NCBI GenBank assembly: GCA_014859645.1
Contig: JACUTV010000005.1
Location: 1-60,867, forward strand
DNA: 60,867 nt
Source: Campylobacterales bacterium
GTDB lineage: Bacteria; Campylobacterota; Campylobacteria; Campylobacterales; Campylobacteraceae
Direction: 5' to 3'
The position numbers and the translations under genes were made by a program. Of this stretch, positions 4,054 to 46,657 are shown one piece after another. Positions within the stretch are counted from its first letter, which is position 1. Every line of letters starts with the position of its first letter. The notes beneath the pieces are model-generated. The model had not been told where the DNA came from. It searched no databases and saw only the letters and a program-made list of their open reading frames with translations.

Positions 4054-4054
4054 T

Positions 4055-4657: not shown

Positions 4658-4758
4658 ACCTAAATCTGACACAAAAATACCACCAATGAGGAATACCCTT
4701 CCTCTCTTCTTTGTCCTATACTTTTCATAGTTAAAATTACCCGCATAAAGGATTTACC

Positions 4759-10700: not shown

Positions 10701-12444
10701 GGTCACTATCAATGGCCAAAGCCACCTTATCACGCACACCATCCAATTTGAGCACGAGGAAACACCCAACGGCGGCGTTGACCCACAAGCGGATGCGGAC
10801 ATTGTGACCATTAAAAATGCGACGTTCGAGACAGAGATTAACGGCCAAACTTACACCTTTAGCATTCTTGGTTTTGTGGACGGAAGCGGCAATCTTGTCA
10901 CCACTGTGCACACCCTTGAAAACCAAGCCAATACCTATGAGTTGGTTGCCAAAATCTCATCCACCGACGCTTTGCCCACTGTTTCTGATACCGTTGGACA
11001 CGTCGAGGGAGATTGGGGAGCAGACGGCCCAGCCGATGCACAAAGCATCACATGGGCAAGCGGTGAAAACACCATCGAAAGTGGCGTTGTCCAAGGCACC
11101 TACGGCACATTAGCCGTGGATGCGCAGGGTAACTACACCTACACACTCGACCGAGAGGTGAAAGATGGTCTGGATGCAAACGAGACGATTACCGAGGAAT
11201 TCACCTACTACCTCACCGACTCCGATGGCGACCGTGTGGCTTCCACGCTCACCGTTACCATCAACGGCCAAGCCACACTAGACGCGGTTGACAACCTTGC
11301 CACAACGACTATTAATGAGGTTTTTGTTGCGCCAGAAGCAACTACTGAAGAGGTAATCAATGAGTTTAGACTCCAAGGAACGGGCAACAGTACTCGTACG
11401 CTCACCAAAACAGAGCAATTTAGCATCGAAGAAAATGCAACGGGTGAACTTAGCTTTAGTGTAGACGTCACCGCTCCTGGTAGCACAAGTGCGACCTACC
11501 ACTGGACGCTCTTTGAGATTGCCAATGGCACAAAGACTACTATTGATGGTAGTGGTACGCTCAATAGCGATGGAACCATTACGGTTTCTGGTTTGGATGC
11601 AGGGAATTACGAAATCTCTATCACTATAGGCACCAGTGGTAGATATTATGATGGATTCTGGCCTTTTGGAAGCTACAAGTATCCAAGCGTCGAAGTCAGC
11701 GATGTTGACCTCACTGCACAACCTGCTTCTTATACCGAGATTCAAACCGCAGAAGCTAGTGGCAATGTCCTCAGTGATGATGTCCTTGGTTCTGTTGGCA
11801 CAACACTTTCTATCTTCACTGAAGGTGATTTTGAAGCCGCAAGCGCCTCTGGCACCACAGTTGCAGGCGAATTCGGCACACTGACCATTTTTGCAAACGG
11901 CGACTACACCTATACGCCTGAGGCTTCACTTGACAACGTTGGGCAAGTTGAGTCCTTTACCTACCAGCTCACCCATCCAAGTGGTGCGACCGATGAGGCA
12001 ACACTTGATATCCGCCTTGATAGCACAACCCTTAATGTGGTCTGGGGAAGTGAAGGAGCGCTTGTGGGAACTGCGGGTGATGATATCTTGGTGCCGACCC
12101 TAGAATCTACGCTTATTGACGGAGGCGATGGCATCGATACCTTGGTGCTTTCTGAGGACATTGACCTTAGCAATGTACGTAACATTGAAATCCTCAAACT
12201 TGACACCGATACGCCTATCAGCCTTAGCGTTGAAGATGTCTTTAACCTCACAGACGACAACAACGTCTTGATTGTTTCAGGCGAAGGCGACGTCCAAATC
12301 ACTGTTGATGCCCTAGAAAACAACGATGTTTGGACGAAAAACGATGCGACAAGCACACCAGAACAAAGTGTGTACGAGGCGGTTTATAATGGTAGCGATA
12401 TTACGCTCATTATCAACCAAACTGTCGATACGGACATTGTGTAA
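4759..12444 (+). CDS. Giant LapA/BapA-like repeat adhesin secreted by type I secretion
   Basis: 2561 residues, surface adhesin. Residues 1-about 130 are a LapA-type retention module (MATVVGFVTQVAGVVRAVSA start) followed by a di-Ala cleavage-type motif (EEAAAG, 97-102). Then come VCBS-type repeats ending in GTNDAPV/GTNDRPV. An inserted alpha/beta domain at about 277-495 looks like a class-I-amidotransferase/ThuA-like fold (low certainty). A PA14-like domain lies at about 1350-1530 (VYIQAGTYNFKVYADDGYEI). Cadherin-like tandem repeats (about 1535-1720) and further Ig-like repeats follow. The C-terminus carries one RTX-like stretch (GTAGDDILVP, DGGDGIDTLVL, from about 2436) and an acidic type I secretion tail. 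The start has AAAGGATTTACC before ATG. Upstream secretion genes and downstream LapG/LapD fit a c-di-GMP-controlled adhesion system. Confidence 0.93.
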   Translation: MATVVGFVTQVAGVVRAVSADGTVRILVMGDPVHANETLETVGQNSSVNVLFEDGRQIAMRGEESSLLDDSVYSGQGYAESEVQAIQEALAQGQTLEEAAAGQEGPASDGGTGDVFVADRTGDLGDIGSYILGTDLAGGEVDEATEDGIVNVAPTVFDTSLSQNEVLDGQNVISGQLLVTDTNPNDTHTFFAVEGSLNVTTPDGVAIEGLTLVLNPDGSYTISGDFNALAAGENAVVTFEFFAVDNFDAASQVATFTLTITGTNDQPVVSDVNANGEGGGTGLVGYYDMNNGEGASAQTDSIETAGLTGLKLFTLSAEELSGIDTLYVQNPSNDNYGSEYLTQLDAITTAVSQGMTLIIHDRYVTNGAQILPGGESIIFHRLAGNLYDIDIADEGLKTGLGGAIDDTSLDGGGYSNHGYVELSSLPEGAVVLMTNGNPNQVVTFSYQYGSGTVIYSTIPLDYYLGNDYGTINTNMQIYAANLLEDMVRSGTAIYESADPQSGVEDVTTTFNGELPAVQDDDANDTHTYEVVGESLHVNNELVTNLTVVVNADGTYTIQGNFNALAAGETATVTFQYVANDGRGFDGTDGVNESSISEPATVTLTITGTNDRPVVADVSDTQDEALDGTNTFSGTLPEAQDADANDTHTYALVEESVDVSNELITDYEVVVNEDGTYSVVGDFNALAVGESATITFQYTATDSSSTQANGESNTSAPATVTLTVVGTNDAPIITDDSITTGTAVEAGNLDDGTVVPATPATGTMMATDVDNGAVLTWSGSTTGTYGSFEINEDTGVWTYVVDETPGSAADKLKEGQSVTETFTVTVTDEHGATDTRDVTITVLGTNDAPVAVADTNSVTEAGNGNFWGDIEPGNPFAIGGLLGNDYDVDGHANPILALDVVKVTSDLTGNSDTTTNFFGNLTLGGAYGSLVVNKATGAYMYTLSNGNGEVNALNEGETLTETFTYTIRDANGAIATSTLTITINGTNDAPVISGQTSGEASEAGVVTDGQGETTPVAAVQAMGTLVATDVDNESVEWSIQGDATGTYGSFAINQAGEWTYTVNPDVGSAADQLAQGEVRYETFTVVANDNQPGNPKTDTQTVTIKIVGTNDAPIITDDSDTTGTAVEAGIATDEGVTTPVAAVHATGTLVATDVDTGATLTWSGDDAGDYGSFMIDATTGKWTYTVDGTPGSLADQLAQGETKTETFTATVTDEHGATDTQTVTITITGTNDAPVAEVQDDLTAVEDGALITGQLVANDIDSDDDATTLTYTLVGDAPAGFVLNNDGSYSFDPSDEAYQSLGVTETADVTFTWIATDSHGASSAPQEVTITVTGTNDAPVATDDGKPTFSFGMLTGNYYAVDSDDNGLSGNTYVNNNSYLVDNLTEFKHIVATTDPAATFEATKVWYGYGSSNGVATGNSLQQFLGDDGASLEYTNGQTNTEEGGIHISGSVYIQAGTYNFKVYADDGYEILINGESVAKYDNNQSPTTRVHGEFTIDADGWYDIEMYWWDQGGEYVFKPEISADGGLTYTALSNEGTYVTPEDTAFTFQPEMLLANDFDIDGDTLTIISVSNAVNGTVELNEDGTITFTPAENFNGVATFDYTISDGNGGEDSATVTLHVSPVNDAPVALDDTLETSKDIPLTILAADLLANDSDVDGDTLSIISVGDAVNGTAVLNEDGTITFTPTGGFSGDATFTYTVSDGNGGTDTATVTITVDPGNSEPTITVTTGNPDNVNDTVSESGLATGSSPSGAAIVATGVFSIADADGLDDITSITLAGAEFSVSASDGFASLVGESVATQYGTVTVTTYNGNGNFSYTYELTDPASNDAPPAATHTSTQDSFTVVVSDGEASAEVTVTIDITDDTPQSFSTEATLSVAATEVLVGNFAAGWVNVQTTASNNKYTGTDLDSDSYHDKIEWGTPSAGGQASGYVFMDNEDLRANGGVEIDTEFTLGTFTHNNFTLTYNSPSLESADLEVKFMVTINGQSHLITHTIQFEHEETPNGGVDPQADADIVTIKNATFETEINGQTYTFSILGFVDGSGNLVTTVHTLENQANTYELVAKISSTDALPTVSDTVGHVEGDWGADGPADAQSITWASGENTIESGVVQGTYGTLAVDAQGNYTYTLDREVKDGLDANETITEEFTYYLTDSDGDRVASTLTVTINGQATLDAVDNLATTTINEVFVAPEATTEEVINEFRLQGTGNSTRTLTKTEQFSIEENATGELSFSVDVTAPGSTSATYHWTLFEIANGTKTTIDGSGTLNSDGTITVSGLDAGNYEISITIGTSGRYYDGFWPFGSYKYPSVEVSDVDLTAQPASYTEIQTAEASGNVLSDDVLGSVGTTLSIFTEGDFEAASASGTTVAGEFGTLTIFANGDYTYTPEASLDNVGQVESFTYQLTHPSGATDEATLDIRLDSTTLNVVWGSEGALVGTAGDDILVPTLESTLIDGGDGIDTLVLSEDIDLSNVRNIEILKLDTDTPISLSVEDVFNLTDDNNVLIVSGEGDVQITVDALENNDVWTKNDATSTPEQSVYEAVYNGSDITLIINQTVDTDIV
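5053..5064 (+). other. Predicted LapG cleavage motif codons in adhesin
   Basis: These codons encode A-A-A-G (residues 99-102) right after the retention module, inside TLEEAAAGQEG. LapG-type proteases cut LapA between two alanines in a TAAG motif at about residue 108, so the position and sequence match. The exact scissile bond is inferred. Confidence 0.6.
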
Positions 12445-12464: not shown

Positions 12465-13110
12465 GAAAAAACGCTTTGTCCTTGGCATACTGGCGGCAGC
12501 AACCGCTGTCGCCCTTTTTAGTACATCCCAGTTTATCATCGAAGGCCAGCTACTCGAAAAGATTGAAAAAGAGTATGGCTTTTTTGCCAAAAACCGCGTA
12601 TTAGCACTGGTTGGCATGATGAATAAAGCCCAAGAACTTGATGAGCGTGGCAAGCTCGAAGCGGTGAATGATTTTTTTAACAAAACTCCCTACGGACTCG
12701 ACAAAGACGTGTGGGGCGTGAGTGACTATTGGGCAACACGGTTAGAGTTTATCGGAAAAGACAAGGGCGATTGTGAAGACTTCGTCATCGCCAAGTATTT
12801 TACCCTCGTTGAGCTTGGCGTTGACCCTAGCAAACTGTTTATGGGGTACGTCAAATACGTCCCTCTCAACATCGCTCACATGATACTACTCTACTACGAA
12901 ACCCCCCGTTCAGAGCCTTTAGTATTGGACAATTACAACCGTAAAATCTTTCCTGCCTCAGCGCGTAAAGACTTGATTCCTGTTTACAGCTTTAGTGGTA
13001 GTGCTTTACTAGACGCCAAAAATGTACAATTAGGCAAAATGCTCCCTGCAAGCACGCGACAAAAACGTGCCTGGGACGAACTCAAAATCATCAAAAAGGA
13101 CCGGCCATGA
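12463..13110 (+). CDS. lapG: LapG-type periplasmic cysteine protease
   Basis: A 215-residue transglutaminase-like cysteine proteinase (LapG/BTLCP family). The Cys-His-Asp triad is visible as KGDCEDF (Cys about 106), NIAHMIL (His about 143) and LVLDNYN (Asp about 160). A hydrophobic N-terminus (about 5-25) would export or anchor it in the periplasm. LapG cleaves the retention module of LapA-like adhesins and releases cells when LapD does not sequester it. The gene lies 18 bp after the adhesin stop, has no obvious ribosome site, and starts inside a hairpin. Its 3' end overlaps lapD by 4 bp. Function is well supported by the neighbouring substrate and receptor. Confidence 0.9.
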   Translation: MKKRFVLGILAAATAVALFSTSQFIIEGQLLEKIEKEYGFFAKNRVLALVGMMNKAQELDERGKLEAVNDFFNKTPYGLDKDVWGVSDYWATRLEFIGKDKGDCEDFVIAKYFTLVELGVDPSKLFMGYVKYVPLNIAHMILLYYETPRSEPLVLDNYNRKIFPASARKDLIPVYSFSGSALLDAKNVQLGKMLPASTRQKRAWDELKIIKKDRP

Positions 13111-15071
13111 GTCTCTTTAAACAGATGGCTATCACGTTTACACTTTTTTTAGCCCTCGTACTCACTTCGGTGATGGTGCTAAATTTCAACACCGCGACCG
13201 AATTTACCCAACACCAACTCTACACCGAGGCTAAAAACACGGCCCACTCCCTAGGCCTCTCCTTGGCCAAAGCCGCAAGTCCTGATGATTTGGTACTCAT
13301 GGAAACGATGATTAATGCCATTTTTGATAGCGGATATTACGAGCGCATCGCCCTTGTGGGCATCGATGATGCGCCCATTTATGTACGTAAAACCAAAGTG
13401 CTCTTAAGCGACGTGCCCCAGTGGTTCATCAATACCATCGAACTTGAAAGCGTGAGTGCCCACAGTGAAATCATGATGGGGTGGCATCAGTTTGGCATCT
13501 TAGAAGTCAAGGGTCACACGGGCAATGCCTACCGTCAGCTTTACCACACGTTTTTAGAATTGTGTAAAACCTTTGCTCTTTTTGGTGTCTTGGTGTTTGG
13601 GGTGCTTTACGCCCTGCTCTCCCTCTCGTTGCAATCCCTCAAACGCATCGCCGAACAAGCCAAAGCCATCATCGACAATGCCTTTATCATCGAAAAAGAA
13701 CTTCCATTCACAACCGAATTTCGCTCCACTACCAAAGCCATGAACGCCATGGTCGAAAAGGTCAAAGACATCTTTGACCGCGAAAACGAAACCCTAAAAC
13801 GCTACCACGAACTGCTCTACATCGATGCGCAAACCAAACTCTACAACCGACGCTACGTCAACACAACCTTGCCAGATTATTTTCAAACCGACACAGGACT
13901 TTCCCGTGGCGCGTATGCGATGGTGAGCATCGACGAGGCAGAGCGCTTTAAAAAAGATGCGGGTTATGAACGCTACAACGCGCTTATTAGAACCATTACA
14001 GAAAGCCTTAAAGAGAAATTTGGCACGGAAGAAAACGTTATCATCGCACGCCTAAATGAGAGTGATTTTTTTGTCTTGGTTCCCTTGATGGAACTTGGAA
14101 ACATTGCCAAGCGTATGGAAAGTGTTATGAAAGCCATCCATGCCGCCATGGAAACACAAACCGGTCAAGAAAAATACCCCTACCTTGCAGGATGCAGCGT
14201 GGGGATTTATCAAGAAAATGAAACACTAAAATCCCTCTTTTCTCGGGCTGATTATGGGTTGATGCACTCCAAGAGCGATGAAAACTTCACCGTGTACATT
14301 TGTGACAAAGAAGAAGAGATGCTTATATTTGGGCGGGAAGAGTGGAAAGACGAATTGCGCAAAAGCATGGAAGAGTCCCGTATTCAACTCGCACGCCAAA
14401 GTGTTGTCAAAAAAGAAAGCGCGGGAGAACATCTGCTCCACGAAGAGGTCTTTTTGCGCTGGCTTGACAACGAAGGCACCCTCCACGCAGCAGGACGTTT
14501 TATCCCTATCGCGATGCGCTTAGGACTTGTGGAAGTACTCGACCGCTATATGATTGAAAAAGTGCTAAACCATCTCAAAGAACATCCTGGCGCTCCTGAT
14601 CTTGCGCTAAACCTAAGCGGAGATTTTGTCAAAAACCATGAAAACGTGCGCTGGTTTAAAAATTTACTTGATGACACACCCCTTAGCGTGAGAGAGAAAA
14701 TCTGGGCAGAAGTCCACAACACAGTCGCGTTGCACGCCCTTGCAGACACCCTCTTGCTTGCGCAAATGCTCAAAAATGCTAAATGCCATTTTGGCCTCGA
14801 CCACTTCACCCTTCCTCCTCAAGGGGCAGGATACCTTCAGGAACTACGTCCTGAATACGTGAAAGCTAGCAGTCCTTATTTGCACGATGTGTTTTACGAC
14901 ACCTTCACCGGCCAAGGACGGGAAAACTTCACCAACCTTATCCGAAGCCTTGGCATCACACTCATCGCCACCAATACTGAAACCCAAAACGAAGTGCGCA
15001 CCTTATTCCCCATGGGTGTTTCCCACTTTCAAGGCAGACACATTGCTTCTGTTTCGCCGCTTGTTTCGTAG
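13107..15071 (+). CDS. lapD: LapD-like c-di-GMP receptor (degenerate GGDEF-EAL)
   Basis: 654 residues, close to the usual LapD length. It has a membrane segment at about 8-28, a periplasmic LapD/MoxY-type domain (about 30-150), a second membrane segment at about 152-172, a HAMP-like region, a degenerate GGDEF domain (LNESDFF where GGDEF is expected) and a degenerate EAL domain (HEEVFLRW, no EAL triad). Loss of both catalytic motifs fits a c-di-GMP binding receptor rather than an enzyme. By analogy, c-di-GMP binding in the cytoplasm makes the periplasmic domain trap LapG and protects the adhesin. The gene overlaps both flanking LapG homologues. Confidence 0.9.
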   Translation: MSLFKQMAITFTLFLALVLTSVMVLNFNTATEFTQHQLYTEAKNTAHSLGLSLAKAASPDDLVLMETMINAIFDSGYYERIALVGIDDAPIYVRKTKVLLSDVPQWFINTIELESVSAHSEIMMGWHQFGILEVKGHTGNAYRQLYHTFLELCKTFALFGVLVFGVLYALLSLSLQSLKRIAEQAKAIIDNAFIIEKELPFTTEFRSTTKAMNAMVEKVKDIFDRENETLKRYHELLYIDAQTKLYNRRYVNTTLPDYFQTDTGLSRGAYAMVSIDEAERFKKDAGYERYNALIRTITESLKEKFGTEENVIIARLNESDFFVLVPLMELGNIAKRMESVMKAIHAAMETQTGQEKYPYLAGCSVGIYQENETLKSLFSRADYGLMHSKSDENFTVYICDKEEEMLIFGREEWKDELRKSMEESRIQLARQSVVKKESAGEHLLHEEVFLRWLDNEGTLHAAGRFIPIAMRLGLVEVLDRYMIEKVLNHLKEHPGAPDLALNLSGDFVKNHENVRWFKNLLDDTPLSVREKIWAEVHNTVALHALADTLLLAQMLKNAKCHFGLDHFTLPPQGAGYLQELRPEYVKASSPYLHDVFYDTFTGQGRENFTNLIRSLGITLIATNTETQNEVRTLFPMGVSHFQGRHIASVSPLVS

Positions 15072-18327: not shown

Positions 18328-18479
18328 GGGTTTTCCTTGTGTAAATTTTGGCGCATTATAGCTACAACGCGCTGATAAAGAGTTTTGCCTACCTCCTCCA
18401 AAAAGAACGTTTTCATACTTCTTCCTTTAAGCCTGTCGTGCTACAATCCCCACAAATGCCTTACTTTTTTGAGGATGCC

Positions 18480-19190
18480 ATGGACCAAAGCACACTAAAA
18501 AAACTCATCGCCACTTGCAAACCTTTGCGTGTTTTATACGCGGAAGACAACCCACAAGTGCGTCTGCAAACGACCAAGATGCTGTCTATGTATTTTGACC
18601 ATATTGTCTCCGTGACCGATGGAAAAGAGGGGTGGGAGCAGTTTCAGGCTCACCCTTTTGATATGGTCTTTACAGACATTAACATGGCAGGGATGGATGG
18701 GCTTGGGCTTATTGAAGCTATTCGGAGCAAAGACGTACATGTACCCATTGTTGTTTTTTCCGCTTACAACAATCCTGAGTATTTTCTCACCACCATTAAG
18801 CTAGGCATACAGGGTTATTTGCTAAAACCTTTTCAATTTGAAGAAGTCGTCCAGACGCTACAAAAAATCCTGAACCTTTCTCACCATGCGTCTCCTTGCA
18901 CCCTTGAATTAGAAGGAGGGTATTGTTGGGACAAGCAAACCAAATGCCTGTGTTATGAAAAACAAGAGGTGCCTCTAAGTAAGCGAGAAATGTTTTTGCT
19001 CGACTTGCTTACTAGCTCAAAGGAGCGCATCTTTAGTAGCGAAGAGATAGAAATAGCTGTTTTTGATGATGATGCGTGTGACAACAAACGGGTGCGAAAT
19101 CTGCTCTCGAGGTTTCGGCAAAAATTATCCTGCGACTTGATTTGTTCTGTTTATGGCGAAGGGTACAAACTCCGATGGCATCGCCCGTGA
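18480..19190 (+). CDS. OmpR/PhoB-family response regulator
   Basis: A 236-residue two-component regulator. The receiver domain (about 18-130) has VLYAEDN, the phosphoacceptor Asp at about 66 in FTDINMAGMDG and the switch Lys in LLKPF. The winged-helix output domain (about 150-236) ends with KRVRNLLSRFRQKL and VYGEGYKLRW. The start at 18480 is chosen because GAGGA lies 4 nt upstream; an ATG at 18456 is possible. It overlaps the histidine kinase by 16 bp, so the two form a pair. Likely targets include the phased AGACAAT repeats just after the kinase gene. Confidence 0.9.
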   Translation: MDQSTLKKLIATCKPLRVLYAEDNPQVRLQTTKMLSMYFDHIVSVTDGKEGWEQFQAHPFDMVFTDINMAGMDGLGLIEAIRSKDVHVPIVVFSAYNNPEYFLTTIKLGIQGYLLKPFQFEEVVQTLQKILNLSHHASPCTLELEGGYCWDKQTKCLCYEKQEVPLSKREMFLLDLLTSSKERIFSSEEIEIAVFDDDACDNKRVRNLLSRFRQKLSCDLICSVYGEGYKLRWHRP

Positions 19191-20731
19191 GCCCTCAAAA
19201 CCTTCACGCACAGCAAGCCGAACGCTACATACAACTGTTCAACAACAGCGGTGTGGGGATTTTTATTGTGGACAAAGAGCGTTTGATTGTTGAAGCCAAT
19301 GCTGCTTTTTGCAAAATCTTTGGGTACGCTCACGAAGAAATCATCCACCAATCTGCCCTTTCCCTCCACCTCTCCTATGCCGCGTATGTCAATTTTGCCG
19401 AAATTGCCTTCAATAAAGTGCGTCAAAATGAAGCCCTCAACCTCAAATACCGCTTCAAACACAAAGACGGTCACGTCCTTTGGCTACGCATTGCGGGAGA
19501 TTCTATCCCTTCTAATGAAGAGGTGTTATGGACGATTACCGACATCACTAGCACCGTAGAAGCCCAAGAAAAACTTAAAAACAGTGAAGAACTTTTGCGC
19601 AATGCCGAAGCCATTTCTCACCTTGGAAGTTGGGAAATCGACCTTGCCACCCAAGCCCTCACCTGGTCCGATGAAATGTACCGCATCTACGGAGAATCAA
19701 GAGAAACCTTTACCCCTACCCTTGAATTTTTTGACCGCTATTTAGACGATGAAGACGCTAAACGTGTCAGAATCCTCAACCAACAAGCCATTTTTAGCGG
19801 AAAAACAGAAAAAATCGACTACATCATCCGCCGAAAAAACGGAGACAACGTCTTTATCAGCACCCAACGCAAGGCGCTTTATGGGGACGATGGAAGACCT
19901 TTAAAACTCGTAGGGACGTCTTTGGACGTAACCCAACTCAAAGAAAATGAGCGGCGCATCCACCACCTCAACAAAGAGCTTCACGAGGAAGTCAAACGCC
20001 AGCTTAACACCTTGCGCGAAAAGGACAAACAACTTCAGTTTCAATCCAGACTCGCCCAAATGGGGGAGATGCTTAGCATGATTGCCCACCAATGGCGTCA
20101 ACCGCTCTCAGCCATCTCTGCCACCACAGGCTTCCTGTCTATGAAGCTGTTGCTTGAAGAGTTTGAGGCCAAGGTTTTCACGCAAGAAATACAGCATATC
20201 GAAGAATACGCCAGCCATCTTTCCCAAACCATCGATGATTTTCGCAATTTTTTCAACCCTATTCGCCACAAAGAAGAGGTCTCTTTGGAGGCTGTTGTTG
20301 AAAAAACCTTGACCATCATTCAACCCATCCTAGACGCGCAAGGCATTTGTGTCCACACCTCTTTTTCTTCCCAAGAAGCCTTTCTTTCGTGCAAAAACGA
20401 ACTAGGGCAAGTCCTTCTTAACCTCATCAAAAACGCACAAGATGCTTTTGAAGAAACCTTATCTTTGCGCCCAACCCTCCACCTTATTACATGTAAAGAT
20501 ACGCATTTTTTGTATTTGATTGTCAAAGACAACGCAGGAGGAATCCCCGAAGCAATCAAAACCAAAATCTTCGATGCCTATTTTTCTACCAAATTTGACA
20601 AAGGCGGCACAGGTGTAGGCCTTAGCATGTCCAAGACCATCGTCGAAGAACATTGCCAAGGAGAACTTTTGGTCGAAAACGACGACGAAGGCGCTATCTT
20701 TACCATCAAAATCCCCCGCAAAGACAATTAG
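19175..20731 (+). CDS. Cytoplasmic PAS-PAS sensor histidine kinase
   Basis: 518 residues, no membrane segment. Two PAS domains (about 10-125, the second about 135-255 with PAC-type QRKALYGDDGRPLKLVGTSL) are followed by a coiled coil and a phosphoacceptor box MIAHQWRQPLSAISA, the QWRQP variant common in Campylobacterota. The ATPase domain has N box LNLIKNAQDAF, G1 DNAGGIPE and G2 GGTGVGLSMSK. The overlap with the upstream regulator marks them as a two-component pair. The signal is unknown; PAS sensing of redox, light or a small molecule in the cytoplasm is possible. Confidence 0.9.
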   Translation: MASPVSPQNLHAQQAERYIQLFNNSGVGIFIVDKERLIVEANAAFCKIFGYAHEEIIHQSALSLHLSYAAYVNFAEIAFNKVRQNEALNLKYRFKHKDGHVLWLRIAGDSIPSNEEVLWTITDITSTVEAQEKLKNSEELLRNAEAISHLGSWEIDLATQALTWSDEMYRIYGESRETFTPTLEFFDRYLDDEDAKRVRILNQQAIFSGKTEKIDYIIRRKNGDNVFISTQRKALYGDDGRPLKLVGTSLDVTQLKENERRIHHLNKELHEEVKRQLNTLREKDKQLQFQSRLAQMGEMLSMIAHQWRQPLSAISATTGFLSMKLLLEEFEAKVFTQEIQHIEEYASHLSQTIDDFRNFFNPIRHKEEVSLEAVVEKTLTIIQPILDAQGICVHTSFSSQEAFLSCKNELGQVLLNLIKNAQDAFEETLSLRPTLHLITCKDTHFLYLIVKDNAGGIPEAIKTKIFDAYFSTKFDKGGTGVGLSMSKTIVEEHCQGELLVENDDEGAIFTIKIPRKDN

Positions 20732-20782
20732 GAGACAATTCCCCTTCTTCCCCTCCCTTTTCGTGAGACAATCCCGAGACAC
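20722..20782. promoter_or_regulatory. Four helically phased AGACAAT repeats, likely response-regulator operator
   Basis: AGACAAT occurs at 20722, 20733 and 20766, and AGACACT at 20777. The spacings are 11, 33 and 11 bp, all multiples of 11. Such direct repeats at one-turn spacing are how OmpR/PhoB-type regulators bind; read on the other strand the unit is ATTGTCT, similar to Pho-box TGTCA units. The array ends about 28 bp before the TATAAT at 20811, right after the two-component genes. Confidence 0.65.
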
Positions 20783-20810
20783 TCTTTTTCTATACTTGTA
20801 TTAAGACTTT

Positions 20811-20837
20811 TATAATCTTAGTACAAGGAGAGTTACG
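20811..20837 (+). promoter_or_regulatory. Promoter -10 and ribosome site of the membrane protein/MBL/COG0523 unit
   Basis: TATAAT at 20811-20816 has no good -35 box at the expected place, which fits an activator-dependent promoter. ACAAGGAGAG precedes the ATG at 20838. Confidence 0.6.
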
Positions 20838-22223
20838 ATGGAAACACCACTTTTTCTCGAAGAGAGAAGCTTGGTCAAACGCTACAGCGGGCCTTGGCCT
20901 CTGCTCATCAACACCCTGTTTATCGCCGTGCTGTTTTACATTAGCTGGTGGATTTTTCAAGACCCAAGGGGCATCATGCGCATGTATACGCCTTTTGAAG
21001 GCTACATGTGGTGCCGTTGGCTGCTGGTCATCATGATTTGGATAGCCTACGTTTTCGACTTTTGGCCCTTTAGCCGCACGTGGCTAAAAAACACCCACCC
21101 TGTGCTCAAAGGTGTCATTTTCACAACCCTAACAGTTGTGCTTTTCACCGTTTTGCTCAAAGGGTTTTTTGAGACCGTTTTGGGGGAGTTGGCGATCGCG
21201 TACTTTAGCCCTAGACGGCTAACAGAACTTGGACTCATTGAGTTTTACGCCATCGAGTATTCCGCCCAAGCCATCTTAATGTTTGCCGCTATCGCTTCGT
21301 GGCTTAGTCCTGCGTGGGTCGTGGCTGCTGAAAATGCTCCGTGGCAAAACCTCAAACAGCCCATCAAAGGGTTTACGGTGTTGATGTTTACTTTTTTCCT
21401 TAGTTTCATCGTCTACTTTGTGGCCTTTCACTCCCACATGGCCATCTTATTTGACCCGTGGCAAGAATTTACCGCTATCACACCTCCTTGGTGGGAAAGC
21501 TTTGCTGACACTGTCCACGGGAACTTTAATATCGCTTGGATTATGTGCTGTACGGTCATCGTCTGGATGCACGAAACCATTTGGGAGCGGTATCCTTTTT
21601 CCATGATCGAACGTCCTTGGCTACGACGCACTGCTTCTTTTATGGGCATCATTGCCATCGCCGTGGCGTTGAGCTTTTTTCTCTACTACGCCCAAGAATT
21701 GGCGTGGGGCGAAGCGATTCGAGGCACAAGACGGGATGAATCTCCTGATTGGCGTTGGTTACATGTAGGAGAATTGGCCATCTTTTGGTTGGTGCCAACA
21801 CTCTTTATGCATTTTTACCTCAATAACGGCGTGAACCGTTTTAGCAAACCTGTCAACATCCTCTTTCGCACCCTCATTTCCATCGCGGCGGCGGTCGTTT
21901 TATACTATGTGTACTACAAAACTGCGCACCTTTTCTTAGGCACACAAAAAGGGTTTTCACACCCACAGCAATTTCCTATGGTACCTATGATTTGGCTCGT
22001 TAATGTGATGCTGGTGAATTACTGGTTCATGGACGGGTGGCCAGGATGGCGCCTCTCACGAGAGGGCGAAGTGGTAAAAACCGCCCATGGTGTCCATGAA
22101 AAATCCGTCCTCACGCCTGCGTTTTACCGTGGTGTGATTGGGGGAACACTTGGTGGGGTTGTCTTTTATTTTGCCCTTGTTTACCTCTTGCCAGCCATGA
22201 CCAATGCGCTGCGCATTTACTAA
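20838..22223 (+). CDS. Polytopic membrane protein of unknown function
   Basis: 461 residues with about ten to twelve hydrophobic segments spread over the whole length, e.g. LLINTLFIAVLFYISWWIF, GVIFTTLTVVLFTVLLKGFF and GVIGGTLGGVVFYFALVYLL. It is rich in Trp and in His/Glu near membrane borders (FHSHMAILFDPW, VWMHETIWERYPF, YYAQELAWGEAIRG), which suggests a redox, metal or transport role, but no known family was recognised. It is first in a tight unit with a Tat-exported MBL-fold protein (22237) and a metallochaperone GTPase (23448), preceded by phased operator repeats. A partner role for the periplasmic MBL protein is inferred from position only. Confidence 0.8.
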   Translation: METPLFLEERSLVKRYSGPWPLLINTLFIAVLFYISWWIFQDPRGIMRMYTPFEGYMWCRWLLVIMIWIAYVFDFWPFSRTWLKNTHPVLKGVIFTTLTVVLFTVLLKGFFETVLGELAIAYFSPRRLTELGLIEFYAIEYSAQAILMFAAIASWLSPAWVVAAENAPWQNLKQPIKGFTVLMFTFFLSFIVYFVAFHSHMAILFDPWQEFTAITPPWWESFADTVHGNFNIAWIMCCTVIVWMHETIWERYPFSMIERPWLRRTASFMGIIAIAVALSFFLYYAQELAWGEAIRGTRRDESPDWRWLHVGELAIFWLVPTLFMHFYLNNGVNRFSKPVNILFRTLISIAAAVVLYYVYYKTAHLFLGTQKGFSHPQQFPMVPMIWLVNVMLVNYWFMDGWPGWRLSREGEVVKTAHGVHEKSVLTPAFYRGVIGGTLGGVVFYFALVYLLPAMTNALRIY

Positions 22224-22236
22224 AAAGGAGGCGATA

Positions 22237-23400
22237 ATGCCAACAACACAAACCCAAGGGCGACGGGAATTTCTCAAAGGGGCGGCTACAGGTCTTGGAC
22301 TTGGAACATTAAGCGCCATGGGAATTTTCTCCTACTCTCCCATGCGGGCATTTTTTCTGCCCGAGGCTGAACGAAAAATGGCGGATTTTGGTACATGTAA
22401 AAGTGTAAAAGTGACCAATATCTCAGAAACAAGCTGGTTTGATAACTCCATCTTAATGGGCGACATCAAAGGCGCGGGTGGCCTTTTGGTCAACCAATAC
22501 GACTACAACTGGGCACCTTTTGGGGACGGTTCGGGGCTGGCCAAAGGAAGCTATGAACGGGGTATTGCCAAAATCAAACACTTACTCCCCAACCACCTTG
22601 AAGAGGCGTGGGAGATTATCAAAACAAACAGTGTCAACCCCGACAACGCAGGGGGTTTTGCAGCTTTGGTTGAAATCGAAAGCTTAGAGGGCAAAAAAAC
22701 AAAATACCTCCTAGACAGCGGGTGGTCTTATGCGTGGATGGACGAATGTTTCAAGCGCGAAGGCATCGATAAGATGCTTCAAAACAACGAAATCGAAGCC
22801 CTTATCATCTCCCACGAACACTTTGACCACTTTTGGGGCTTACCCGTCACCATGAAGTACGCCCCCAACATCAAGATTATCATCCCTGAAGGGTTTTACA
22901 AAGAAGGACTTCAGTACATTAAAGATTCGGGCCACACGGGCGAAGTGGTGGTTGCTAAAAAAGGGCGCAATGACTGGGAACCTGGCTTTTGCACCTACAC
23001 CTTTGACGTGCCTATCATCTGCCGTGTTTTTGGAGAACAATCCCTCTTTGTAAACGTGCAAGACAAAGGGCTTGTGAGCATCACGGGGTGTTGTCACCAA
23101 GGCATCATCAAGTTCGCCGACACGGCGTACAAAGAGCTCAAATACGACAACGACCAAATGTACGGGCTTTACGGAGGCTTGCACATTTCCCCCTTTGAAG
23201 ACTGGGATCCAAAGTACGACGACCTTGTTATTTCACTGGGCAAATGGGACTTTCAAAAAGTCGGGTGCAACCACTGCACAGGCTTGCTGACCGCGCAAAA
23301 ATTTATCCGCGCGGGGTATCCTGTGGTGGAAGGAACCGCCCAACATCGCTCTAAAAGCAAAGCCTACCTTGGTAATGGCGACATTATCACCTTTGGCTAA
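22237..23400 (+). CDS. Tat-exported metallo-beta-lactamase-fold hydrolase
   Basis: 387 residues. The N-terminus has a twin-arginine signal (RREFLKGAATGLGLG), so it is exported folded, with its metal already bound. The metal-binding motif is ISHEHFDHFWG (HxHxDH form), followed by SITGCCHQG, YGGLHIS and a C-terminal CNHCTG. This set resembles the branch that includes dihydropterin-ribofuranosylaminobenzene phosphate synthase-like proteins. The substrate is unknown. The ATG at 22237 is chosen for AGGAGG 6 nt upstream. It follows the membrane protein by 13 bp. Folding before export fits a cytoplasmic metallochaperone, as encoded next. Confidence 0.85.
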   Translation: MPTTQTQGRREFLKGAATGLGLGTLSAMGIFSYSPMRAFFLPEAERKMADFGTCKSVKVTNISETSWFDNSILMGDIKGAGGLLVNQYDYNWAPFGDGSGLAKGSYERGIAKIKHLLPNHLEEAWEIIKTNSVNPDNAGGFAALVEIESLEGKKTKYLLDSGWSYAWMDECFKREGIDKMLQNNEIEALIISHEHFDHFWGLPVTMKYAPNIKIIIPEGFYKEGLQYIKDSGHTGEVVVAKKGRNDWEPGFCTYTFDVPIICRVFGEQSLFVNVQDKGLVSITGCCHQGIIKFADTAYKELKYDNDQMYGLYGGLHISPFEDWDPKYDDLVISLGKWDFQKVGCNHCTGLLTAQKFIRAGYPVVEGTAQHRSKSKAYLGNGDIITFG

Positions 23401-23408
23401 CACGCTCA

Positions 23409-23433
23409 CCCAAGGGGCGTCAAGCTCCTTGGG
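23409..23433 (+). other. Intercistronic hairpin before COG0523 gene
   Basis: CCCAAGG (23409-23415) pairs with CCTTGGG (23427-23433), just upstream of the AAAAGGA ribosome site of the next gene. It has no T tract, so it is more likely an RNA-processing or translation element than a terminator. Confidence 0.4.
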
Positions 23434-23447
23434 AAAAGGATTGACTT

Positions 23448-25244
23448 ATGCGCATTGATGACCTTTATCCGCTTGCTTTTGAACACACCGCACAGGGCTT
23501 TCGCACCCTCATGCGCACCTTGCTCATCAAGGCAAATTACGACGGGGTTTTAAAAAAAACCACAGGCTTTAGAGGCATGCACGTGAGCGAAGAACGCCAA
23601 GAGTGCTGGACACTCAAGTTTGAACAATTCGCTGGCGTTTTTGGGATTTTTCTGGCCAACCTTGATGACACGTTTGGCCATTTTCACCTGCATTATTTTC
23701 CCTCTCCCCAAGAAGCCTTACTGGAAAAATGCTCTTTAGCAGAAGCGTGCCTTGCTAACGCTCCTGATTTTATCGACAAGGTGCGTACGTTTTACGCTCA
23801 CGACGCGCTCTTAACGCATTTTTTCATTGGAACTTTAGCCTTACATGTAGACCCGCAAAACGAAAGCCTTTATGGGGCGTACCAAGGGCAAATGCGTGAG
23901 CGTATTTATGCTAAAGAGGGCGTGGTTCATCCTCATGAGCCCCACACCTTCTTGGTGCCAAAAGAGGGACTAGACAAAGACTTTCCCGCCTTTCGCCTGC
24001 TCTTGCCCCTCATGCACTTTTTTAACACTACCCTTTTGCGCCTCACCCAAGAAGCGCCCCGCACCTTTGAACTCTTTCGCGCCAAGGGAACCTGCCTTAC
24101 TTACGACAGTGCGGGCGTCTTTCACTCCGCTGCCGATGGAGGTTCGGTCAAGATTTTGGTCGCCACAGGCTATGGAAAAATACCCCACAGCACCTTAACC
24201 CAAACCCTGCTAGAAGGCACCCATGCAAAAAAGATGGATGATTCTAAAAGCCTCACCGTTTTTTTTCAAAAAGCACCGTGGTATGAACTCGATGCCAACA
24301 ACCATCTCGTCACCACGCCCCTCGCCCAAGCAACGCCAAAGCCAAAACTCATCGTTGTAACAGGCTTTTTAGGCTCTGGAAAAACCAGTTTTTTGCAGCA
24401 CTACATCGAACACGAAACCCAAAACAATCGTTTTGTAGGCATCATCCAAAACGAGATTGGAAAAATCGGTCTCGATGGCAAGCTTTTGGATTATGATTAT
24501 TCGTTGGTTGAGATGGACGAGGGGTGTGTGTGCTGTTCCCTTTCGGGTCAATTGCGCGCAGGCATTGGAGCACTCACCCAAAAAGCTTCGCCAGATACAA
24601 TCTTGTTGGAGACGTCAGGCGTGGCCAACCCTTTTAACCTCCTTAGCGAACTAGATGAACTGGACGATTTGGTAGATTTTGAAGCCATTGTGACGGTGGT
24701 GGATGGGGTTAATGCCCTAGCGTTGTTTGAGCAGTATCGTATTTTTCAAGACCAAGTGCGCGCCGCCGATGTGATTTTGCTCAACAAAAGCGACTTGCTC
24801 GATGAAATCACCCAAGCCAAGGTCTACGCCCGCATCCTTGCCAACAACCGCTGTGCGGCCATCTTGCCTGTGGTGGAGGGCAACATTCACCCTAGCACCT
24901 TGCGCCGTTCTATCGTGGCTTCCACCTCACAGATTGCTTCTTTGATTTCCGAAGAAGAAAGCGCGCCTTTTACCCATGTGGATGAGGGCATTTCAAGCCT
25001 CAAAGTGACACTCTCAGCCCCTTTAACGAAAGGATTATTTTCCACTTACCTTCGCAAATTACCCAAAAAAATCTACCGCGTTAAGGGCGTGGTGCGCTTT
25101 AAGGATGAGCCAAATCCCTGGGTAGTCCAGTACGTCAACGGGCAATTTGAATTTTTAGAACAGTGCAACGGAGCCAACACGGAAACATTTTTGGTGTTTA
25201 TCGGCAAAGATTTAGACAAGGGGTATTTTGAAGGGCCGCTGTAG
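23448..25244 (+). CDS. COG0523/CobW-like metallochaperone GTPase with large N-terminal extension
   Basis: 598 residues, nearly twice the usual COG0523 length. From about 303 it has the GTPase (P-loop VTGFLGSGKTS, metal motif GCVCCSLSG, LLETSGVANP, guanine motif LNKSDLL) and the usual C-terminal domain. Residues 1-about 295 are an unrecognised domain with a His-rich stretch (TFGHFHLHYF) that could bind metal. G3E GTPases of this kind insert or traffic Zn, Co, Ni or Fe. Its position after a Tat-exported metallohydrolase suggests it loads that enzyme before export. This is inference; no zinc-uptake repressor box was identified upstream. Confidence 0.87.
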   Translation: MRIDDLYPLAFEHTAQGFRTLMRTLLIKANYDGVLKKTTGFRGMHVSEERQECWTLKFEQFAGVFGIFLANLDDTFGHFHLHYFPSPQEALLEKCSLAEACLANAPDFIDKVRTFYAHDALLTHFFIGTLALHVDPQNESLYGAYQGQMRERIYAKEGVVHPHEPHTFLVPKEGLDKDFPAFRLLLPLMHFFNTTLLRLTQEAPRTFELFRAKGTCLTYDSAGVFHSAADGGSVKILVATGYGKIPHSTLTQTLLEGTHAKKMDDSKSLTVFFQKAPWYELDANNHLVTTPLAQATPKPKLIVVTGFLGSGKTSFLQHYIEHETQNNRFVGIIQNEIGKIGLDGKLLDYDYSLVEMDEGCVCCSLSGQLRAGIGALTQKASPDTILLETSGVANPFNLLSELDELDDLVDFEAIVTVVDGVNALALFEQYRIFQDQVRAADVILLNKSDLLDEITQAKVYARILANNRCAAILPVVEGNIHPSTLRRSIVASTSQIASLISEEESAPFTHVDEGISSLKVTLSAPLTKGLFSTYLRKLPKKIYRVKGVVRFKDEPNPWVVQYVNGQFEFLEQCNGANTETFLVFIGKDLDKGYFEGPL

Positions 25245-27392: not shown

Positions 27393-28589
27393 TTATTTCT
27401 CAAACAAAATCTTCCCGTACCGCCCTGCCCACCAGCCAAATACCCCTAACCACGCTAGCGCGCTAAGGCCAATAAGACTCAGATAATGGGCAGGAAATAA
27501 GTCCGCACCCACGCGCAACAGCGTCATGGTTTGCACCAGTCCAAACAACGCCACCGCGTAGCCATCGGCCACAGGTGTGCGCCCCGAATGCCCCAGCAAG
27601 ACCCGCGTCCCAAAGCCAATGAGCACGGTCGTAAAATACCCAAGTGCCAAGGCATGAAGCGGCGCGTGGCCAAAGTGCCACCCCAAATCAAACCACGAAG
27701 AGAGTCCTTGGAGTGTAAAGAGTAAAAAGCCCACAGGTGCCCACCAGATGGAGAGAAACAGCACCCATAAGATAGGCGGAGACTGGCGAAAAGGAAGTTT
27801 CCACCGCACCAGTTCAAGGGTAATAACCCCAAACAAAAGCCCATCGGCAAGCAAGGCATTGAGCCCTAAAGATTCTAACGCCACTTTAAGCAAAAGGCCG
27901 CCAAATACCACAGGCAAAAAGTACGTGGACTTGCGCACTTCGTACCCTTGAACGCGGTTAGCCGCAAAAAAAGGAATCATCTTTTGGGACACCACGATGA
28001 CCACCAAAAAGAGGTACATGTAAAAGCTCATGTTGAGCGCTACATGTAAGGTTGGTGCGACGAATGCGGCCATAAAAAGCAGTTGCGAGAGGGCGCCAAA
28101 TGCAAAGGCGACTAACATCCACGAGGTGTCTTGTTTGTTGGGCACGCTGCTTTGACGTTGAAAACTCCACAACACCCACGCCAGTTTTCCGTAGCCCACC
28201 AACACAAGCACCATGGCAAGCAACGTCCATGTTTCAGAAACAAAACTAAACACCGCTAACCCCACGCCGCCTAGGCTCAAGGCCAATGCGGGCCACAGGT
28301 AAGCAGATTTTGGCGCACTGGGACGCGCAAGGTAACGGGGAAAAGTAGTGAGCAAAAAGCCCACAAAAAACTGGGTAAACACCACAAACGCCATGGCATA
28401 CCCGTGGTAGAATTCGGGCCTTACATGTAAGGCAATCCATCCGCTAAACTGCATCCCAAGCAAAACCACAAACACTACCCCTTGCACAATCCCGCTAAAG
28501 AAAAACAGCCGATGGGGCAAGGCTAAGAGGTTTTGCCACGGCGACGTTTTGGGGCTTGGCGGGGGCGTGAGGCTACTGACAAAAACCAC
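27393..28589 (-). CDS. nnrS: NnrS family membrane protein
   Basis: About 398 residues with around twelve membrane segments. Conserved features are PHRLFFFSG near the N-terminus, HALALGYFTTVLIGFGTRVLLGHSGR and scattered His residues that ligate haem and copper in NnrS. NnrS protects against nitrosative stress in denitrifiers and nitrate ammonifiers. The GTG start at 28589 is chosen for AAGGAG 7 nt upstream; it overlaps the tpx gene by 17 bp. An ATG far upstream (28721) would run through tpx and is unlikely. Co-transcription with tpx and the FNR-type box at 29188 put it under anaerobic or NO-linked control. Confidence 0.9.
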   Translation of the reverse strand: MVFVSSLTPPPSPKTSPWQNLLALPHRLFFFSGIVQGVVFVVLLGMQFSGWIALHVRPEFYHGYAMAFVVFTQFFVGFLLTTFPRYLARPSAPKSAYLWPALALSLGGVGLAVFSFVSETWTLLAMVLVLVGYGKLAWVLWSFQRQSSVPNKQDTSWMLVAFAFGALSQLLFMAAFVAPTLHVALNMSFYMYLFLVVIVVSQKMIPFFAANRVQGYEVRKSTYFLPVVFGGLLLKVALESLGLNALLADGLLFGVITLELVRWKLPFRQSPPILWVLFLSIWWAPVGFLLFTLQGLSSWFDLGWHFGHAPLHALALGYFTTVLIGFGTRVLLGHSGRTPVADGYAVALFGLVQTMTLLRVGADLFPAHYLSLIGLSALAWLGVFGWWAGRYGKILFEK

Positions 28590-29133
28590 AGCAACTCGCT
28601 CCTTGATTCGCAGCCGCGATGGCTTTTTGGAGCGCCTCCTCATAGTCTGGTTCGTCCGTAATCTCTGGGACGATGTGCTTATACACAATGCGACCGTCTT
28701 TGCTGATGATAAAAATAGCACGCGCGCACAGCCCTTCTAGTGGCCCATTCTCGATGAGCACACCATACGCTTTGGCAAAAGCTTTGGCTTTAAAATCGCT
28801 CACAAAGGTGAGGTTTTCTACCTCTGAACGGTTGCAAAAGGAAGCCGCCGCAAAGGGCAAATCCATGGACACAAAAATGCCCTCAATGCCTTCTTGTTGG
28901 GCCAAACGCATACTAAACTCATGGGCTTCTTTGGCACACGTGGGCGTGTCAAAGGAAGGGGCGGTGAGAATGAGCTGGATGGTGTTGCCCTCCATCCCAA
29001 CGGTCTTTGGCTCCAAATGCGGGTCAAGAAGACTCACAATGGGTGCGGGATTGCCCAGTTCTTGAAATGCGCCCCCAAGGCGCAACCGCTCCCCTTTAAA
29101 TGCCGTGTAATCGGCTTTGTCTTGAAATACCAT
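28573..29133 (-). CDS. tpx: Thiol peroxidase (Tpx-type peroxiredoxin) with Cys-rich tail
   Basis: 186 residues. Tpx motifs: PSFDTPTCAKE (peroxidatic Cys) and SFCNRSE (resolving Cys). It reduces hydroperoxides using thioredoxin. Compared with a usual length near 165-170 it carries a C-terminal extension ending in ASCCGFCQ, with three Cys that could bind metal or act in redox exchange. The ATG at 29133 has AAGGAGAG 6 nt upstream; an upstream ATG at 29160 is less likely. It is first gene of a tpx-nnrS unit. Confidence 0.9.
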   Translation of the reverse strand: MVFQDKADYTAFKGERLRLGGAFQELGNPAPIVSLLDPHLEPKTVGMEGNTIQLILTAPSFDTPTCAKEAHEFSMRLAQQEGIEGIFVSMDLPFAAASFCNRSEVENLTFVSDFKAKAFAKAYGVLIENGPLEGLCARAIFIISKDGRIVYKHIVPEITDEPDYEEALQKAIAAANQGASCCGFCQ

Positions 29134-30131: not shown

Positions 30132-33100
30132 ATGTCCGTCAAAGAATTAGTTCAAAAAATCTTTCAAACCAACACTAATTACAATGAGCCAGAACAAGCG
30201 ATTAATCAAGCTGAGTCTTTAAAGTCATTATCAAGTGATTTGTATACAGATTCTAAGCGATTCATCTATGAACTATTGCAAAACGCTGACGACTCAGGCG
30301 AAAATGGACGATTAGTAAATGTAGAAATCAAACTTTTTAATAACATATTAGTTGTGGCGCACAATGGAAAAGGATTCGACTCGTCGGATATAAAAGGTAT
30401 TTGCAATATTAACAACGGAACAAAAAAATCTTCCATCGAAAAAACTGGCTATAAAGGGATAGGCTTTAAATCTGTATTTGGACAATCGGACAAAGTGATC
30501 ATCTTTTCAAATGGCGAATATTTCAAATTTGATGCAAATCACGATTTTGGCTGGAAAGAAGAATGGAGTTCAAATAAAGATACGTGGGAGATAGAAAACA
30601 ACAGAAAATTTGTTTTTCCTTGGCAGATTATTCCTATTTATACTTTTGAACGAGAAATAGAGCAAGAGATTCAAACTTTTTTAAAGACTGATTGGAATGT
30701 AGCAACAATCATCGAGCTTTTTAAAAAAGATGATGTACAAAATGCGATAGAAGAGTTAGCAAGCAATGTTAATATGTTTTTATTTTTAAAAAATATCAAC
30801 AGCATAAAATTTACCACAGATCAAACAATTGAAATCTCCATTGACAGAAAAACAATAGGCGAATATACGCTGTCTAAAAATAAAGACATTAAATCTCAGT
30901 GGATAATTAGAACAGTTCACTTAGAAGTAACTGATGAATTAAAAAATTCACTTCAAAATGAAAGAAATATTCCTGATAAACTATTGCAAACCAATAAAAT
31001 CGAATTAACTATGGCTATACAAAAAGGACAAGAGGGGCTAAAAAAATTAGCTACTAATGAGAGTTTATTATATGCTTATCTACCGACGGATGAGAAACGC
31101 TACTCTTTGCCTATACTTGTGAATACTACTTTTTTGATGTCTGCAAATCGTGAATCACTTCATGCCGATTCTAAATGGAATCAATGGCTATTTAAATCAA
31201 TTAGTCTTGAATTATTTAAATGGATAGCATCACTAATAAAAGGTGAATACTCTTATCAAGCGTATCAGTTAATGCCAATTAAGCTATCAACGAACGATGA
31301 GTTAAGTAGAGAATATAACAGAGGTATAGATGAAGCTGTTGAGACAATACCTTTTATCCTTTCAAAAGAAAATGAATTGCTAAAAGTCAAAGAAGCGCTT
31401 ATAGATTCAACTTTTTTATCCGAAAAGACTTTTATCGGTTCCGAAGTTGTTAGAAAATTTATCATCCATAAAATTGGAAGTGGTAATGCAATAGTTGAAA
31501 AACCGTTTGTAATGAATACAGGTTTTAATTCATTGCTTGAAAAGATAGGTGTAGAAACTTTTAAGTGGAATGACGTACCAGCTTTTTTTGCTTTTGAAGA
31601 TTTTTTGTCTGAACATACTGTAGATAAAAATATAGAGCTTATACAATATTTTAAAAATGAAAGTGAATTAAAAGATCCCGTAGTTGATGAGAAAAAATTA
31701 AAAAGTTTGGCTTTTATATATGATCACAAAAATAAGCTAACTCATCCCAATAATGTATACTTTCCTGCACCAGATGATAAAACTTGGAATAACCCTGAAA
31801 GTTCATTATCTTTTTTACATCAAAAAATTCAAACATGGCTACTCGAAAAACAAAAAAGTAGAAAGTGGTTAGAAAAACTAGGAGTCGTAGAAAAAACAGA
31901 TATTTCATTTTTGGAAAAAACTATCATTCCTAATTGTGAAAATTATATTACAAATCTAAATGCTATTGAAACAATACAAACAATCTATAGCTTATATAAA
32001 AAAGAAAAAATTGAAGATAGATTGAGACAATTGGCTGATTTAAAACTTCTTACAAAAAATGAACATTTAATTTCTGCATCAGAATGTTTTTTTTCAGATG
32101 AGTATACTCCAAAACTAAAGATTGAAGAAAATATCAAAGATGATATATTTTTAAGTGAAAAATATTTAGATGTAATAAATGATGATAAGGACGAGATAAA
32201 AAGATTTTTTAAATACATGGGAGTTCAAGAAGATATTAGTATCTTTACAATTAAAGAAAAAACTTCAAACGAAATACTTATTAATTATTATGAATTTGAA
32301 AAAGAATATTTTAATTTAGCAGATAAAAAGTTTTCACCTGTTGTTACTACTTTTACAGCCGATACATACCAAGATATAAATACTTTATCTTTTTTATCAA
32401 AAACAAATTCTTTCCAATTCTCAAAATTATTTTGGAATACAGTAATTCAAAATATTAATTTAACTAGCATTCAGAAATTGCCTAGAGCATATTGGGGAAA
32501 TTTTGGTTATCCAAGTCGAATAACTGGTAATTTAGTTGGCAGTTATTTAAAATGGTATGTTCAAAATATAAAATGTATTCCCACAAAAAAAGGGTTTTGT
32601 GATAAATCCATTTCTGTATTTATCAATAGTGATGAAATGATCAAACTTGCGGGTAAATATTTACCTGTGTTCGATAGCTCCATTGAGCTAACGCAAGATT
32701 GGAAAGCGTTTTTTTCTTTCAAAACAGAATTTCAACTTGAAGACTATTTAGAATTGTTAACTGCCATTTTTGATGATAAAACCGATGAAAATAAATTACA
32801 AGAGTTCAATAAAAAAAGAGTTCAAGAAATTTTTTATAAACTCTTGGTGCAATCAAATAATTGGAATACAGCAGAGATTGAAAAAGTTAAAACATGGGCA
32901 GAATCGACTTTTTTAACGGATGAAGATTGTAATATAGTTGAAGCTAAACACTTAAAATATTATGCTGATGGGGATACCTCGATTTTTCAAGAAATTTATC
33001 AATTCATTGGGCTGAATGAAGAAAATAAAGCGCATCAAAATATTGAGAATTTATTAGAGTATTTTGGAATAGAAATACTAAGACAAGATAATTTTGATAT

Positions 33101-44575: not shown

Positions 44576-44634
44576 GTTAGGGGATGCGTGATTATTTTAA
44601 AATACTACGACCTAAAAAGAGAGGCTTTGTTGCG

Positions 44635-46654: not shown

Positions 46655-46657
46655 GCC

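Follow-up and report, generated by a model that had tools for sequence, protein, structure and literature searches.

This work concerns an operon of three genes on contig JACUTV010000005.1 (assembly GCA_014859645.1) of a Campylobacterales bacterium. The whole stretch of DNA analysed, 60,867 nt, is referred to as the window. The genes occupy 20838-25244 on the plus strand and encode, in this order, a membrane protein (MEM, 20838..22223), a hydrolase of the metallo-β-lactamase fold (MBL, 22237..23400) and a GTPase fused to an N-terminal domain (NTD-GTPase; NTD at 23448..24323, the cobW and CobW_C part at 24324..25244). An initial annotation, made from the sequence alone, had described three tightly spaced genes behind a two-component pair; all three are present at that place, and open reading frames and Pfam matches confirm the arrangement. 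The reading frame of MBL opens at 22204, but the true start is almost certainly the ATG at 22237, because a ribosome site (AAGGAGG, 22225-22231) sits ahead of it. With this start, 13 bases separate MEM from MBL, and 47 bases separate MBL from the fusion gene.

The trio is, on comparative evidence, a real and conserved unit inherited together across very distant anaerobic bacteria. A scan of the genome collection gave 110 relatives, 80 of which were examined at locus level. They come from Sulfurospirillum-type Campylobacterota, Desulfovibrio, Pseudodesulfovibrio, Desulfobacterales, Malonomonas, Desulfuromusa, Rhodospirillales and Hyphomicrobiales, and further from Sutterella, Parasutterella, Deferribacteraceae and bins of Bacteroidales and Spirochaetia. 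MBL lies directly 3' of MEM in every one of the 77 loci whose flanks were long enough, overlapping it by a few bases in three (L012, L013, L019), and NTD-GTPase is next in order in 61 of 67. Five of the six loci breaking this order are Rhodospirillaceae-type; the sixth is a Syntrophaceae bin with the GTPase nearby on the opposite strand. Of 298 Campylobacteria genomes, 6 are matched by the MEM profile, and the NTD profile matches these six and no others. Among 199 Desulfovibrionaceae genomes, MEM is found in 53, NTD in 54 and both in 52 (Fisher p 2.6e-44, a value that leaves the relatedness of the genomes out of account). Over 65 loci, the pairwise distances of MEM track those of the GTPase with a correlation of 0.83, partly from shared ancestry. 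Since the order is kept across many phyla and co-occurrence is genome-wide, the trio is not a product of chance. The co-conservation that the initial annotation had named as a check on its reading was therefore borne out.

Within the window's own family, MEM is present in 5 of 150 genomes, the window's included. In the other four it is 66-77% identical, with MBL and NTD-GTPase adjoining in the same order. A distribution this patchy, combined with such high identity, suggests that the genes were lost in places or spread by horizontal transfer. Plasmid-borne copies of the module were sought and none was found. Pseudodesulfovibrio OB3 carries two complete copies in one genome (L028 and L036), one with ExbB-TonB genes and one without. 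Two genomes have NTD and lack MEM. In G484 it is an NTD-GTPase; in G417, the locus (L107:5534-8757) holds genes for PAS and GntR proteins alongside a truncated NTD, with neither MEM nor MBL, and is probably a deletion relic of the module. No description of the trio was found in the literature (main text of open-access papers), and by term search its genes are not discussed in the main text of papers on the proteome and regulation of Sulfurospirillum multivorans.

The initial annotation had called the membrane protein Trp/His-rich, polytopic and of no recognised family, and this description holds. MEM contains 26 Trp in 461 residues and 11 His, and has no family match in Pfam, NCBIfam, PADLOC or PHROGs; sequence and profile searches against the PDB gave nothing convincing either. 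A structure model built from 70 sequences (pLDDT 78.7, pTM 0.83) is read as 11 membrane helices. Compared with solved structures by Foldseek, this model gave a best E of 0.2 and a query TM of ≤0.24 among the matches listed, again nothing convincing. Membership in a known transporter or respiratory membrane protein family was thus found neither by sequence nor by fold. With helix limits taken from the model and sides assigned according to the positive-inside rule, conservation is 83-98% in outer loops 1, 5, 7 and 9, as against 70% in outer loop 3 and 57-83% in the inner loops and termini. The best-conserved loops (36-51, 201-227, 291-305 and 368-380) would accordingly face the periplasm. Four histidines (H198, H309, H364 and H375) are invariant in the subfamily termed A below. 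An NnrS-family membrane protein is encoded 2 kb from the trio on the minus strand (27393-28721); by Pfam it belongs to a different family from MEM.

The second gene encodes a Pfam Lactamase_B domain with HxHxDH, preceded by a twin-arginine (Tat) motif. In alignments with PDB 7dck and 2p4z, the HxHxDH, TGCxH, GGxH and HC(T/S)G motifs coincide, placing the protein in the MBL fold, and from these motifs we take it to belong to COG1237. The ligands H212, H214, D216, H217, H306 and H335 are conserved at 1.00 and H365 at 0.99 (L013 numbering). They are essentially invariant across the set, members from Rhodospira, Roseospira and Rhodospirillum included. Compared with the COG1237 hydrolases that share the motifs (7dck, 2p4z and Tm1679), the proteins studied here differ in their predicted Tat export, in a conserved, mostly AxA-less anchor and in their genetic bond to MEM. 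The twin arginine is present in 76 of 77 MBL sequences read; in the window the motif is RREFLKGAATGLGLG, followed by an uncharged stretch, and by this motif MBL is a predicted Tat substrate. No second copy of MBL was found in the window's genome.

The segment behind the Tat motif (M-G-x-x-S-Y) is itself conserved in subfamily A, with M47, G48, S51 and Y52 above 90% (L013 numbering). An AxA site after the motif is absent from 59 of 77 subfamily A sequences and present in most of those of subfamily B. As a cleaved signal peptide is not expected to show such conservation, the N-terminal anchor probably stays uncleaved and contacts a partner, for which MEM is the obvious candidate. Adjoining MEM in subfamily B and in some subfamily A loci are small proteins (about 85-95 aa) that begin with a Tat-like RRxFF and lack a hydrophobic stretch (L101:6291-6569, L141:9044-9307, L142:11041-11307; L043:9656-9910, L052:9648-9911). 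They are possibly signal-peptide mimics or assembly factors.

The last gene had been described in the initial annotation simply as a fused COG0523 chaperone. The fusion is real; to this can be added that its first 292 residues form a separate domain, confidently folded in a model of residues 1-293 (pLDDT 92.8, pTM 0.90). Searches of this NTD against the PDB by sequence and of its model by Foldseek gave nothing convincing. It holds no invariant Cys or His and is therefore unlikely to bind metal itself. The GTPase part scores 134 bits with Pfam cobW (cut-off 20.7), carries the Walker A motif GFLGSGKT, ETSG and the guanine motif NKSD of P-loop GTPases, and has the CxCC motif of COG0523 as GCVCC, whose three Cys are invariant in 69 relatives. 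The same GTPase signature, CxCC and CobW_C are found in the COG0523/G3E metallochaperones YjiA, CobW, ZigA and Nha3, with YjiA as the nearest chain of known structure (E 1e-21). Known COG0523 members typically, if not absolutely, start with the G-domain (PMC9164220). In the window's protein, the G-domain starts near residue 300, behind a 290-residue domain of no matched fold; COG0523 membership is hence claimed for the GTPase part and not for the whole fusion. This part falls far below the curated NCBIfam cut-offs for the CobW equivalog (116.6 vs 332.1 bits), the ZigA equivalog (86.5 vs 600 bits) and PRK11537. It is the only CobW_C-domain protein in the window's genome, and the fusion shows no export signal in its sequence. 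A role in anti-phage defence was considered and set aside: PADLOC gave only two weak matches, both to the GTPase protein. Taken together, the GTPase and MBL are members of known superfamilies, and MEM and NTD are without known relatives in the libraries searched.

Upstream of the trio, also on the plus strand, lie genes for an OmpR-family response regulator (18348..19190; Pfam Response_reg and Trans_reg_C, i.e., receiver and winged helix; probable true start ATG 18480) and a histidine kinase with two PAS domains (19142..20731; PAS_3, PAS, HisKA and HATPase_c). The same pair is kept ahead of the trio in Campylobacterota. Comparison of the region 5' of MEM in 16 loci revealed two tandem AGACA repeats with 11-base periodicity in the window and in most Sulfurospirillum-type relatives, the second just 5' of a TATAAT-like box; Arcobacter-type relatives have diverged forms (TAGACA). 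Such spacing of repeats is typical for OmpR-type regulators. On the plus strand of the window, a distal AGACA-N6-AGACA pair is located at 20722..20737 and a proximal pair at 20766..20781, over the -35 region. The likely -10 element, TATACT at 20791..20796 (TATAAT in most relatives), was identified by eye from the upstream regions. A looser form of the operator has two perfect matches in the window, where 0.08 are expected. The strict form, GAGACANNNNCNAGACA, is that of the proximal pair and occurs once in the window's genome and twice each in G318 and G295, always directly 5' of MEM. In G225, it occurs twice 5' of MEM and in two other places. In the window's genome, as in two of the three Sulfurospirillum-like ones, the strict operator is thus exclusive to MEM, and the two-component pair hence most likely serves the trio operon alone. 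A GntR protein with an FCD domain (FadR-type, 37 of 81 loci), together with a PAS protein, takes the regulator's position in Desulfobacterota and Alphaproteobacteria.

Other genes join the operon in some lineages. ExbB, ExbD and TonB lie directly 3' of the GTPase in about 16-18 loci of Desulfovibrionaceae, Sutterellaceae, Alphaproteobacteria and one spirochaete bin, and the set often overlaps the GTPase gene by 4 bases. TonB-dependent receptors are encoded in all 15 genomes checked.

A divergent match in Desulfovibrionaceae led to two further MEM subfamilies, B and C. H309 is invariant across all three, and in subfamily B it is fully kept, with H364 and H375 mostly lost. Subfamily B (L101, L138-L142 and L144) has the Tat-type MBL gene followed by MEM. 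Most of these loci continue with a small protein whose N-terminus is Tat-like and with a free NTD-like protein that lacks a GTPase domain; the latter is recognised by profile in four loci (E 7e-21 to 3e-7) and in a fifth (L101) by clustering only. In two subfamily B operons, MBL is preceded by a small gene that encodes a c-type haem motif. An in-frame TGA in the MEM of one Desulfovibrionaceae genome (G384) was considered as selenocysteine and rejected, being the normal stop of the shorter subfamily B protein. Subfamily C (L149-L157) is about 21-24% identical to the window's MEM, lacks MBL and is His-rich at several membrane-edge sites. In five of its nine loci it adjoins genes for acyl-CoA dehydrogenase, CoA-transferase, enoyl-CoA hydratase, thiolase or acyl-CoA synthetase, and in L149 the neighbours read like an electron-transfer flavoprotein (ETF) and an FeS oxidoreductase.

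Several genomes hold MEM and MBL with no NTD-GTPase anywhere: Rhodospira trueperi, two Roseospira species and one Rhodospirillum metagenome-assembled genome. An uncultured Rhodospira has only a weak NTD-like match. In Rhodospira and Roseospira loci (L079, L081, L085 and L090, about 12765-13385), a secreted protein weakly resembling half of an OpuAC (glycine-betaine-binding) domain stands in the place of the GTPase, and in L090 a TRAP-type binding protein gene follows it. As subfamily B lacks the GTPase and some Rhodospirillaceae keep MEM-MBL without NTD-GTPase, the core of the module is MEM-MBL(-NTD), with the GTPase an add-on. The simplest order of gain, judged from presence and absence, would be MEM, then MEM-MBL, then NTD and the GTPase last.

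These observations bear directly on what the module may do. Our tentative interpretation is an inducible module of the cell envelope: MEM and a tethered hydrolase would work on the same substrate, assisted by the cytosolic NTD-GTPase. The response regulator would activate the operon in response to its signal. MBL would fold with its metals, be exported by Tat and remain tethered by its uncleaved anchor beside MEM, where it would cut a small organic substrate. MEM, with its conserved loops in the periplasm, would take over the product and most likely carry it inward. In some lineages, the operon-encoded TonB-ExbB-ExbD would energise passage of the substrate through the outer membrane. On the cytosolic side, NTD would dock on MEM, and the attached COG0523 GTPase would add a GTP-gated metal-handling step that could load metal into MEM or MBL. 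Uptake is suggested by the ExbB-ExbD-TonB genes in the operon, the FadR-type GntR regulators and the acyl-CoA neighbours of distant MEM homologues. Several points weigh against this interpretation. The substrate and activity of the module are postulated; transport by MEM is deduced from topology and neighbourhood only, and the topology in turn from a model of moderate confidence (pLDDT 78.7). Only about one fifth of the loci have the TonB genes, the window's operon lacks them, and a receptor gene was not seen within any of the trio operons. Furthermore, the 56-78% identity of MEM across phyla is high for a transporter and suggests that an enzyme or electron-transfer subunit would fit too.

Metal handling offers other explanations. 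The initial annotation had proposed a unit with its own metal-loading step. Spelt out, this would be a metalloenzyme operon whose COG0523 GTPase inserts a scarce metal into MBL in the cytoplasm before Tat export. The MBL ligands and the CxCC motif are indeed invariant or nearly so, NTD-GTPase is strictly co-inherited with MEM, and a known COG0523 protein, Nha3, matures a single client, Fe-type nitrile hydratase (PMC9164220). That system is likewise an enzyme operon with a COG0523 GTPase, but its client is unrelated, it shares neither the membrane protein nor NTD, and metal insertion in the trio is hypothetical. Moreover, MEM and MBL persist in four Rhodospirillaceae-type genomes without any NTD-GTPase, and subfamily B has MBL, MEM and NTD without the GTPase. 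Both cases indicate that an MBL of this type can do without the GTPase, which could equally serve MEM. The conserved unit therefore stands, and loading of MBL by the GTPase is weakened rather than refuted, since other COG0523 proteins could stand in where NTD-GTPase is missing; we consider it unlikely. In a related scheme, TonB would import a metal chelate, MBL would open the chelator, MEM would import the metal and the COG0523 GTPase would receive it. The overlap of the TonB-ExbBD genes with the GTPase gene and the metal binding of COG0523 proteins (PMC9164220) fit this metallophore uptake. Nevertheless, the FadR-type regulators and the acyl-CoA neighbours point to carbon compounds, the operons hold no siderophore receptor and the GTPase is missing in some lineages, so that such a route is quite improbable.

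A redox role of MEM was also weighed. MEM would then be a membrane-bound metal or haem protein moving electrons, with MBL and NTD as partner or assembly factors and the GTPase supplying its metal. The invariant histidines (H309 in all three subfamilies), the His-rich membrane edges of subfamily C, its acyl-CoA dehydrogenase and ETF-like neighbours and the c-type haem motif ahead of MBL in subfamily B are all consistent with electron transfer. Among solved membrane proteins, redox ones included, the model had no convincing counterpart, however, and H364 and H375 are mostly lost in subfamily B even though H309 is fully kept. This role is distinctly unlikely in our judgement.

Elsewhere in the window, a low-GC island (30132-35065; 29-35% vs about 48%) encodes a 1289-aa sacsin-domain protein and a 355-aa SLFN_AlbA_2 protein and looks like a recently acquired two-gene defence-type unit. 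An operon at 44584-50445 with a luciferase-like monooxygenase, a FecCD permease and a TonB-dependent receptor is read as iron or cobalamin-type uptake. At 516-12444, an ABC exporter and an HlyD gene are followed by a gene for a surface protein of 2561 aa with cadherin repeats; together they probably form a set for a type I secreted adhesin.

It is quite possible, if short of probable, that the trio represents a previously undescribed envelope machine of anaerobes that processes one inducing compound. It would unite a new membrane-protein superfamily of three subfamilies, a tethered periplasmic MBL and an NTD of new fold in the cytosol, with one branch adding a metal step driven by GTP. The unit spans Campylobacterota, sulfate reducers, purple bacteria and gut bacteria (Sutterella, Parasutterella, Bilophila and Mailhella relatives), and it brings together two protein families without a known fold match. 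For the COG0523 family, clients are undescribed for many members; here, the GTPase has clear candidate partners. Furthermore, with a regulator that apparently has a single target operon, the inducing compound may be found directly by means of a reporter.

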